From: Gammaproteobacteria bacterium
GTDB taxonomy: Bacteria; Pseudomonadota; Gammaproteobacteria; DSM-19610
NCBI GenBank assembly: GCA_030618475.1
Contig: JAUXDG010000002.1
Span: 1 to 32,667 of the forward strand
Direction of reading: 5' to 3'
Length of the DNA stretch: 32,667 bases
The notes beneath the pieces are model-generated. The model searched no databases, had not been told where the DNA came from, and saw nothing but the letters and a program-made list of their open reading frames with translations. Made by a program: the position numbers and the translations under genes. Positions 1 to 3,775 of this stretch are shown here, one piece after another. How positions within the stretch are numbered: the stretch's first letter is position 1; each line of letters opens with the position of its first letter.

Positions 1-93
1 CGACTTGCCGTATAAGCAATATATATACGTTACATCGTATAATGTCAATATATACGCTTAAACGGATAAAAATATTATACGGCTTACCGTATA
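1..93. repeat. Tandem array of about four 18-bp palindromes, consensus TATACG-N6-CGTATA (operator/iteron-like), truncated at left edge
   Basis: Units read directly: CG-acttgc-CGTATA (1-14, left half cut by the window edge), TATACG-ttacat-CGTATA (24-41), TATACG-cttaaa-CGGATA (51-68, one mismatch), TATACG-gcttac-CGTATA (76-93). Spacer inside each unit is always 6 nt; unit period is 27, 27 and 25 bp. Confidence 0.75.
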
Positions 94-174
94 AATAGGG
101 CGGCAGGGTTGAGGACTGGCGCGAATTTCACTTTTTGTGACGTTCGACGTAGAAAACTTGCATCCGGGTAATAC

Positions 175-190
175 CTGTATATACTTACAG
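175..190. promoter_or_regulatory. LexA/SOS box 1 (CTGTATATACTTACAG)
   Basis: Exact CTGT-N8-ACAG, overlapping a likely -10 (TATACT, 180-185) with a -35-like TTGCAT (158-163), 32 bp upstream of the lexA ATG. Confidence 0.9.
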
Positions 191-194
191 TACA

Positions 195-210
195 CTGGAT
201 AAAATTACAG
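195..210. promoter_or_regulatory. LexA/SOS box 2 (CTGGATAAAATTACAG)
   Basis: CTGG-N8-ACAG, one mismatch to CTGT-N8-ACAG, starting 20 bp after box 1. The tandem arrangement resembles the double box at E. coli lexA. Confidence 0.65.
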
Positions 211-221
211 CAGGTGGCGCA

Positions 222-830
222 ATGGAAGAACTGACTCCACGGCAGGCGGAAATCCTGGCCCTGGTTCGGGAATATATCCACGACGAAGGCTATCCGCCCA
301 CACGCATGGAAATTGCCGAAGCTTTTGGTTTCCGCTCGCCCAACGCGGCCGAGGAGCATCTGCGGGCGCTGGAGCGCAAGGGTGCCATTGAATTGTTGCC
401 GGGCTCTTCACGCGGTATCCGCCTGCTGGATGCCGAGCAAGAACAGGGCATCCCGGTGGTGGGTCGGGTGGCGGCCGGCGAGCCGATTCTGGCTGCAGAA
501 CATGTCGAAGACCATTACCCCGTCGATCCGGCACTGTTTCACCCGCGGGCGCATTACCTGCTGCGGGTACATGGCATGAGTATGCGCGATATCGGCATTA
601 TGGACGGCGATCTGCTGGCCGTACACCGTACCCGGCAGGCGCAGAATGGCCAGATAGTCGTGGCGCGCCTGGACGATGAAGTAACTGTCAAACGTTTTCG
701 CCGCCGTGGTTCCATTGTTTATCTGCTGCCCGAAAATGAAGACTTCGAACCCATTCGTGTTGACTTGCGGCAACAACCGCTGGTTATCGAAGGTTTGGGC
801 GTAGGGATTCTCCGTAACCAGTCGCTATGA
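222..830 (+). CDS. lexA: LexA repressor (SOS regulator, S24 autoprotease)
   Basis: [54 protein letters not shown] wing-helix; VAAGEPILA cleavage region; [17 protein letters not shown] catalytic region. Confidence 0.96.
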
Positions 831-1510
831 CTCTCGACGCTTTGTTACAACGTACGGATGTCTGGCGCGGTGGCCGACTCACTGCTGCCGTTAAGGCTGT
901 GCCCAGCGGATTCACCGAACTGGACGAACTGTTGGGCGGAGGCTGGCCACAGGGTGCCTTAACCGAAATCATTATGCCCCGCCAGGGTATTGGTGCACTG
1001 CGTCTGCTGATACCGGCGCTGGCACGACTCAGTCAGGGCGACCGCTGGATATGCTGGGTGGCGCCTCCGCATATCCCCTATGCCCCCGCCCTGGTCAACG
1101 CTGGTGTCGACTTGTCCCGCATATTACTGGTGCATCCCAGGGCGCAGCAGGATGGTCTGTGGGCAGTGGAGCAAAGTCTTCGTTCCGGAAACTGTGCTGC
1201 CGTTCTGGCCTGGCCGGCGCTGGACGACAAGGTCATATTGCGGCGCCTGCAACTGGCGGCAGAAGCCGGTGGTGCCCTGGGTGTCCTGTTTCGTCCCCGG
1301 CATTTTGTACAGCGGCCATCAGCGGCGGCATTACGTATCCAGTTGGCCTCCGGAATCGATGGCGGCCTGTCGGTATCCGTCCTCAAACGCCGTGGCGGCT
1401 GGGTGGCCGGTCCGGTTCATCTAGACAATTCTCTGCAGACACATGGTGCACTGGCTTTGCATTCGCGCGGCACAACTGCCACTGGAAATTTTCGCTCGCA
1501 GTGGCAATAA
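827..1510 (+). CDS. imuA: ImuA/SulA-like translesion synthesis-associated protein
   Basis: RecA-like fold start '[62 protein letters not shown]'; ATGA overlap with lexA; followed by imuB. Confidence 0.88.
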
Positions 1511-2873
1511 AGAACAGCCACTGGCAGTCAGTGACGAGGGAAGGCGAGCCAGTGTGTTGTTGTGTAATGAAGTCGCACAAATCCGTGGCATCTGCCCTGG
1601 CATGCCGGTTGCGGCTGCGCGGGCCCTGGCCCGTGACCTGATTATCCAGTCCAGGGATCACAAGGCTGAGCAGGCAGCCTTGCACAGTCTTGCTGCCTGG
1701 GCCTATCAATTCAGTTCCCAGGTCAGTCTCTATCCGCCTTGTGCGCTGTTACTCGAAGTGCAGGGCAGCCTGACCTTGTTTGGCGGGCGTGTTGCCTTAC
1801 TCAAAAAACTACGCGCAGGGCTCGCAGAACTGGGCTACCAGGTTCAGTTTGCCGGCGCACCGACACCGCTGGCTGCCTTGAGCCTGGTCCGCTGCCAGCG
1901 TGAACAAATGGTCGAAGAACAACATCAGCTGGCAGCGGCTCTGGCGCCTCTGCCCATCTCCGTACTGGACTGGGAGCAGACATTACTGGACCGTATGGAT
2001 GGTATGGGCGTGCGTCGACTGGGTGATGTATTACGACTGCCGCGTGACGGACTGGCGCGCCGACTGGGCCAGCGCAGCCTGCTTTATCTGGATCGCATGC
2101 TCGGCCGTCAGCCGGATCCACAAACCCTGTACCGGCCACCCACACAATTTAAACACCGCCTGCAGCTGCCGTCAGAAGTCGAACACGCACAGGTATTGCT
2201 GTTTGCCTTGCAAAGACTGGTGCTGGAACTGTGCGGCTGGTTGCAGGGCCTGGGCGCAGGGGTACAGACATTCGATATCGCTTTATGGCATCGGCAAGGG
2301 CGGCAGACATCCTTGTGTATAGGCATACACAAGGGGAGCAGGGATGCGGAACAATTCACCATCCTGTTACGTGAACGCCTGGAACGATTAGTATTGCAGG
2401 AACCCGTTATCTCAGTCGAACTTTGTGCAGAGAAAATTGTAAAACTCGAGGCACAGTCGCTGGATCTGTTCGGGAAAACTGATGTGCGGGGCGAGGTCGA
2501 TTTGCTCGATCGCTTACGCGCGCGACTCGGTGACCAGGCTGTAAAAGGTGTCAGTGCCGTCGCCGAGCACCGGCCCGAATATGCCTGGTGCTACAGTGAA
2601 CCTGGCCACAGTCAGAAAGACAGCAGCGGTCAGCAAAGACCGCTATGGCTGCTACCCGTGCCACGACAGCTCAAAACCCGGAGCGGACGGCCCCAGCTGC
2701 AAGGTGAACTCAAACTGCAACCCGGCTGCGAACGTATCGAATCCGGATGGTGGGATGAACAGGATGTCGCACGTGACTATTTTGTCGCCACAAATTCTTT
2801 CGGTTCGTGTTACTGGATTTATCGCGAGCTCAGCGGTGAGCGGCATTGGTATTTGCAGGGGGTTTTTGAGTAG
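1443..2873 (+). CDS. imuB: ImuB, Y-family DNA polymerase-like protein (probably non-catalytic)
   Basis: '[13 protein letters not shown]...LAVSDEGRRASVLLCNEVAQIRGICPGMPVAAARALA', 'LLEVQGSLTLFGG', HhH-like 'LDRMDGMGVRRLGDVLRLPRDGLARRLGQ'; Pol-Y catalytic acidic motifs not evident; 68-nt overlap with imuA. Confidence 0.9.
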   Translation: MVHWLCIRAAQLPLEIFARSGNKEQPLAVSDEGRRASVLLCNEVAQIRGICPGMPVAAARALARDLIIQSRDHKAEQAALHSLAAWAYQFSSQVSLYPPCALLLEVQGSLTLFGGRVALLKKLRAGLAELGYQVQFAGAPTPLAALSLVRCQREQMVEEQHQLAAALAPLPISVLDWEQTLLDRMDGMGVRRLGDVLRLPRDGLARRLGQRSLLYLDRMLGRQPDPQTLYRPPTQFKHRLQLPSEVEHAQVLLFALQRLVLELCGWLQGLGAGVQTFDIALWHRQGRQTSLCIGIHKGSRDAEQFTILLRERLERLVLQEPVISVELCAEKIVKLEAQSLDLFGKTDVRGEVDLLDRLRARLGDQAVKGVSAVAEHRPEYAWCYSEPGHSQKDSSGQQRPLWLLPVPRQLKTRSGRPQLQGELKLQPGCERIESGWWDEQDVARDYFVATNSFGSCYWIYRELSGERHWYLQGVFE

Positions 2874-2896
2874 GAGCCCGGGTAGCGCCTGAATCA

Positions 2897-3775
2897 CTAC
2901 TCGGCGGTGCCGTTGCGGACGGATTGCTTATAAGTCCGGTAAAAACCGATCATGGTTTTCCACACCGGCCCCGGCGATCCCTGGCCAACCGTTTTTGCGT
3001 CCAGTACCGTGACCGGGATGATTTCCCGGGTGGAGCTGGTTATCCAGATTTCATCGGCTTCCCGTAGCCTGTCTTCGCTAATATCGGTTTCCTGACAGGG
3101 CAGCCTGTGTTGTTCGGCGAGTTCCAGGACCAGGTCGCGGGTGATGCCGGGCAACATTTGTGGCCCTTTGGCAGGTGTAAGAATGTTGCCGTCCTTGACG
3201 ACAAAGACGTTGCTGGCTGATCCTTCAATAACCAGGCCATTGCGAATCAGTATGGCTTCCATGGCATTTCGGTCAACAGCCTGCTGCCGCAGTAATACAT
3301 TGGGTAACAGGGTGACAGCCTTGATATCGCAGTACTGCCAGCGTATATCATCGAGCGTAATCGCTGCGACACCTTGTTCTGTTATTGCGGGGTCAGGGTC
3401 GGTGATGGGGTTGCTGCTGGCAAAAACAGTCGGTATGACGTGTTCCGGAAAACTGTGGTCACGTTTTGCAGCGCTTCCCCGTGTCACCTGCAGATAAACC
3501 GACTGATCGTTATTGGCTGCGGCCAGTCCGCGGTTGTGTTCCAGTAAGGTGTCGAGGATTGCTTTCCATTCGCCGTCGCTGTGTGGATTGTCGAGGCGAA
3601 TACCGTCCAGGCTGTTTTGCAGTCTTTGTAAATGATGCGAAAGCCGGAAAAGCCGCCCGCCATAGGCCGGTATGACCTCATATACCCCGTCGCCAAACAG
3701 AAAGCCACGGTCAGTGACGGGGATAAGGGCGTCTTCGATGGGGATGAATTTTCCGTTCAGGTAGACTGTAGACAT
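2897..3775 (-). CDS. dat: D-amino acid aminotransferase (class IV PLP)
   Basis: MSTVYLNGKFIPIEDALIPVTDRGFLFGDGVYEVIPAYGGRLFRLSHHLQRL; 'ITRDLVLELA'; 'EIWITSSTREIIPVTVLDAKTVG'; located after dacA as in related genomes. Confidence 0.85.
   Translation of the reverse strand: MSTVYLNGKFIPIEDALIPVTDRGFLFGDGVYEVIPAYGGRLFRLSHHLQRLQNSLDGIRLDNPHSDGEWKAILDTLLEHNRGLAAANNDQSVYLQVTRGSAAKRDHSFPEHVIPTVFASSNPITDPDPAITEQGVAAITLDDIRWQYCDIKAVTLLPNVLLRQQAVDRNAMEAILIRNGLVIEGSASNVFVVKDGNILTPAKGPQMLPGITRDLVLELAEQHRLPCQETDISEDRLREADEIWITSSTREIIPVTVLDAKTVGQGSPGPVWKTMIGFYRTYKQSVRNGTAE

Follow-up and report, generated by a model that had tools for sequence, protein, structure and literature searches.

In Escherichia coli, HipB is reported to bind cooperatively to four TATCC-N8-GGATA operators and to repress hipBA, with HipA acting as co-repressor (PMC3376134, PMC3920265). 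The promoter regions of Caulobacter crescentus hipBA1 and hipBA2 are reported to have three palindromic operator sites (PMC8545095). In Legionella hipBST the Xre protein HipB binds three evenly spaced inverted-repeat sites that differ from the array studied here in their 53-bp gaps, conserved cores, other arms and tripartite system (PMC10653801). We analysed a gammaproteobacterial contig of 32,667 bases (C235, taken complete and hereafter the window) from a 79%-complete MAG. As judged from the DNA, its bases 1–93 very probably constitute a HipB operator array together with the leftward hipBA promoter/operator region, pointing away from lexA. Control switches of this type are already known; the organism is a new one for them.

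The resemblance to E. coli K-12 hipBA lies in the overall plan, that is, four 18-bp palindromes with TAT/ATA ends immediately upstream of hipB (in the window, of its predicted start), one of them in the −35/−10 spacer with the −35 element abutting it. Read in the same way, the MG1655 hipBA promoter has four units at 28/39/28 bp, with TTGACT abutting one unit. The window departs from it in its half-site, TATACG rather than TATCC, and in its spacing of 27/27/25 bp; E. coli-type TATCC half-sites are lacking from the array, whose half-site is TATAC(G), while the overall geometry is the same. The likeness to C. crescentus hipBA1 and hipBA2, several palindromic operators in the promoter (three there), is drawn from their published description (PMC8545095).

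Units, spacing and statistics of the array

A first-pass annotation had described four TATACG-N6-CGTATA units of identical geometry in a periodic array upstream of lexA. The phased array stood up to scrutiny, but bases 1–93 hold three full 18-bp palindromes and half of a fourth, and the middle unit is an imperfect palindrome:

1–14, minus strand: half unit TATACGGCAAGTCG (minus-strand reading), proximal operator, truncated by the contig edge
24–41, unstranded: unit TATACGTTACATCGTATA, perfect arms with 0 mismatches to TATACGN6CGTATA, operator within the −35/−10 spacer
51–68, unstranded: unit TATACGCTTAAACGGATA, one arm mismatch, operator just upstream of the −35 element
76–93, unstranded: unit TATACGGCTTACCGTATA, perfect arms, distal operator

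The CGTATA at 9–14 is the right arm of the cut unit, whose start would be coordinate −3. Unit-to-unit spacing is accordingly the annotated 27/27/25 bp, the first 27 being implied by the half unit. At this same place, 27 bp from the next unit, relatives have the unit nearest hipB, and a fourth unit, the counterpart of the distal one, is also found in three of their loci (L089, L090 and L096). The array is made up of several 18-bp palindromes with arms of 5–6 nt and a variable core.

None of 5000 local dinucleotide shuffles of bases 1–96 equalled this arrangement of three phased units with at most two mismatches in total, the best shuffle having five. The genome-wide search for TATACGN6CGTATA proposed in the annotation found units with at most one mismatch solely within this cluster. 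The reversed control pattern also occurs three times, and the signal is therefore the clustering, not the genome-wide number. An Rfam search of window positions 1–1000 returned no match, leaving an RNA element unsupported.

Promoter within the array and its direction

On the minus strand, TTGACA lies between two units, the next unit follows in a 17-bp spacer, and then comes the −10 element:

43–48, minus strand: −35 element TTGACA of the leftward hipBA promoter, at the same operator-relative position in most hipB promoters examined
20–25, minus strand: −10 element TATATA after a 17-bp spacer, placed by alignment with hipB promoters

Operators and a sigma-70 promoter of hipB type are thereby interleaved, with the unit at 24–41 filling the spacer. 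The reverse complement of bases 1–96 aligns with the plan of hipB promoters, sharing 57 of 74 positions with each of the two closest. When ten hipB promoters were made into a profile, with the window left out, it matched minus-strand positions 72–1 at 56.7 bits (E 1.2e-15). On the plus strand it scored 35.1 bits, as expected because the units are palindromes, and it found zero matches in 30 shuffled windows. The 55 motif-bearing loci without hipB scored at most 32.1 bits, all of them exceeded by the window, which evidences a similarity to hipB promoters beyond the bare palindromes. Loci at hipB ranged from 8.8 to 81.0 bits; a low score hence does not exclude a hipB promoter, while a high score is specific.

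The annotation had suggested an operator array for cooperative binding by a dimeric protein, and this was right in kind, the most likely regulator being the Xre-type antitoxin HipB. The 18-bp palindromes, whose starts are about 27 bp apart, would be bound, probably cooperatively, by dimers of this helix-turn-helix protein, either by themselves or together with HipA, the kinase toxin. One operator would fill the −35/−10 spacer and its neighbours would flank the promoter. Since the operators lie in and around the promoter, we propose that HipB occupancy blocks RNA polymerase and that the operon, presumably intact beyond the edge, represses itself. Among relatives the −35 element precedes the ATG by 57–70 bp, which places the predicted hipB start at coordinate −22 to −9, that is, 9–22 bp past the left contig end.

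hipBA of relatives, the lexA side and rival explanations

A family-wide search for the unit revealed one other array, that of the congener G005, whose four units are spaced exactly 27/27/27 bp and stand directly upstream of an 82-aa Xre protein (hipB) that is followed by a 432-aa HipA. Pfam assigns the domains HipA_C and Couple_hipA to the latter, which aligns with E. coli HipA over its full length (1.6e-90). For the 82-aa protein, the match to E. coli HipB (8e-6) is slightly bettered by one to a HigA antitoxin (4e-7). The annotation had advised a search for a neighbouring Xre or toxin-antitoxin regulator, and in G005 such a pair stands directly beside the same array. It had also named lack of conservation in relatives as grounds for dismissal; instead, the array is kept in relatives, upstream of hipB rather than lexA.

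With the G005 HipA as query, genomes of 85,462 species yielded 23 loci, and most of those with upstream DNA have the order unit, TTGACA, unit in a 17-bp spacer, −10, unit, hipB start. The window's unit and the 27-bp phasing recur in the hipBA promoters of Thiogranum-like and other proteobacterial MAGs (L089–L109), and for most of the gammaproteobacterial hipBA set the TTGACA position is as in the window; the window differs from L089–L109 in having lexA as its neighbour and in lacking its own hipB in the assembly. A plasmid hipBA of Caulobacter rhizosphaerae (L196) likewise has four units of TATACG/TATGCG kind at 27/27/27 bp. A two-unit pattern (at most three mismatches) was found in 16 of 369 genomes of the class, the window's included, and in 0 for the reversed control; it lies at hipB in 10 of the other 15. 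Among 386 alphaproteobacterial genomes, five have the pair (at most one mismatch), all five at hipB. The hipB promoters of relatives mix TATACG and TATCC half-sites.

In the window, the contig ends before the start of the gene expected directly downstream, and no HipB or HipA of G005 type was found in the 79%-complete MAG. The hipBA piece is likely missing because it was not assembled or binned. The same genome has a hipBA-like pair of unrelated type on contig C5 (L055, 197–1830), and its contig C38 opens with a HipA fragment (L056, 1–453). These two HipA_C genes were rejected as the missing genes of the array, being of another type than G005 HipA.

The other side of the array is occupied by lexA and its control sites:

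175–190 and 195–210, unstranded: two SOS boxes of lexA, a 16-bp direct repeat conserved upstream of lexA in congeners, outside the array
222–830, plus strand: lexA, divergent neighbour, with Pfam LexA_DNA_bind and Peptidase_S24

The SOS boxes are separate from the array, as annotated. Relatives of the same genus keep them, and everything farther upstream varies from genome to genome. The contiguity of array and lexA is known from one assembly.

Several further observations concern this side. A repeat of ~21 bp, (G)AATCTCAYTTTNTRTGGCG, lies upstream of lexA in one copy in the window (119–151) and in three copies in each of two congeners (L011, 1369–1430; L018, near 2200–2243). They resemble IS21-like terminal repeats; a transposase was looked for and none was found. 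In the region 827–3775, a SulA/ImuA-like gene and an ImuB-like gene (Pfam IMS) come after lexA, and the next long frame, on the opposite strand, looks by eye like a D-amino-acid aminotransferase. Many imuA-imuB cassettes have dnaE2 adjoining; the window's ImuA/ImuB-like pair has no dnaE2 next to it.

How far do other explanations account for these data? The array could be a relict in which operators and promoter survive but hipBA itself, beyond the left contig end, was deleted or broken. The lack of G005-type HipB and HipA in the assembly fits this, as does a region upstream of lexA that is different in every congener. Against this, the MAG is incomplete and the contig ends exactly in an operator, many hipBA loci of relatives are likewise on short contigs or at contig ends, and two units with perfect arms plus an intact promoter are unlike a decayed site; we consider a relict unlikely. 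Less probable still is that the units serve a different Xre-type regulator, or form a phage-type two-operator site, and not hipB. The pair does lack a neighbouring hipB in 5 of the 15 other genomes of the class and in 50 of 55 viral contigs, but such sites almost always have two units only, whereas 10 of the 11 other arrays with at least three phased units adjoin hipB, and the window's 56.7 bits stand against at most 32.1 for sites lacking hipB.

The position of the array upstream of lexA would suit a part of the lexA control region bound by an extra regulator of the SOS response. This is hardly credible, as the promoter within the array is directed away from lexA and no congener examined has the array upstream of lexA; a profile search of their lexA upstream regions found no second copy, and a lexA-linked function was therefore rejected. 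A replicon's iteron array or centromere-like site, which the annotation had also offered on the strength of the regular phasing, found no support and has a negligible probability: the repeats are inverted, have variable cores, number just three to four and surround a sigma-70 promoter, the genes alongside are chromosomal rather than rep or par genes or a replicon origin, and relatives have hipB beside their arrays, not rep or par. What speaks against the preferred reading as a hipBA promoter/operator region is the MAG's lack of G005-type hipB and hipA, a gene start that lies outside the contig, the contiguity with lexA in one assembly, a half-site (TATACG) that departs from E. coli TATCC, a distal spacing of 25 instead of 27 bp, and pairs of the TATACG unit in phages without hipB.

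Paired sites in phages and a possible HipB code

The 50 viral contigs mentioned above (L133–L187 minus L147, L158, L173, L180 and L183) carry the pair TATACGN6CGTATA-N9-TATACGN6CGTATA, and hipB is absent from its surroundings. Although a gap of 7–10 was allowed, each of the 40 distinct phage pair sequences has one of exactly 9. Some pairs separate tRNA genes, some fall inside stretches annotated as permuted tmRNA (L141, L152), and others occupy further intergenic gaps. Cultured Caulobacter phages (CcrBL9, CcrSC and relatives) and roseobacter phages have the pair or a close variant, for example:

L188, 2501–2547: phage pair of Dinoroseobacter phage DS-1410Ws-06
L189, 1501–1545: phage pair of Caulobacter phage CcrBL9

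A tblastn search of the cultured phages carrying the pair found no HipB or HipA. The host genus Caulobacter has a hipBA with TATACG-type operators. A related palindrome pair, TATACGACAGTTCGTATA ... ATACGACATGTCGTCTA (L127, L128), recurs in G062 and, in genome G202, on three contigs, in each case distant from any hipB, and is possibly the end of a mobile element.

We tentatively suggest, as a possibility well short of even, that 27-bp-phased TATACG-N6-CGTATA is a HipB code common to alpha- and gammaproteobacterial hipBA, and that lytic alphaproteobacterial phages carry promoter-less two-operator decoys that would titrate host HipB or HipBA. The decoy part is one reading of the phage pairs; alternatively, some other regulator, of host or phage, may use the same site. 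If the decoy reading is true, the phage pairs would mimic a real cellular operator, represented here by the array of the window.

Reading bases 1–93 as a hipBA promoter/operator region makes a predictable control element of a repeat array that had no explanation; an array of this sort predicts a hipBA operon even if a draft genome lacks the genes. The reading also brings out a clear alternative HipB half-site, TATAC versus TATCC, at fixed 27-bp phasing in two classes of Proteobacteria, which renders HipB specificity testable. The wider pay-off may lie in the phages, which have the same paired site and no hipB gene.
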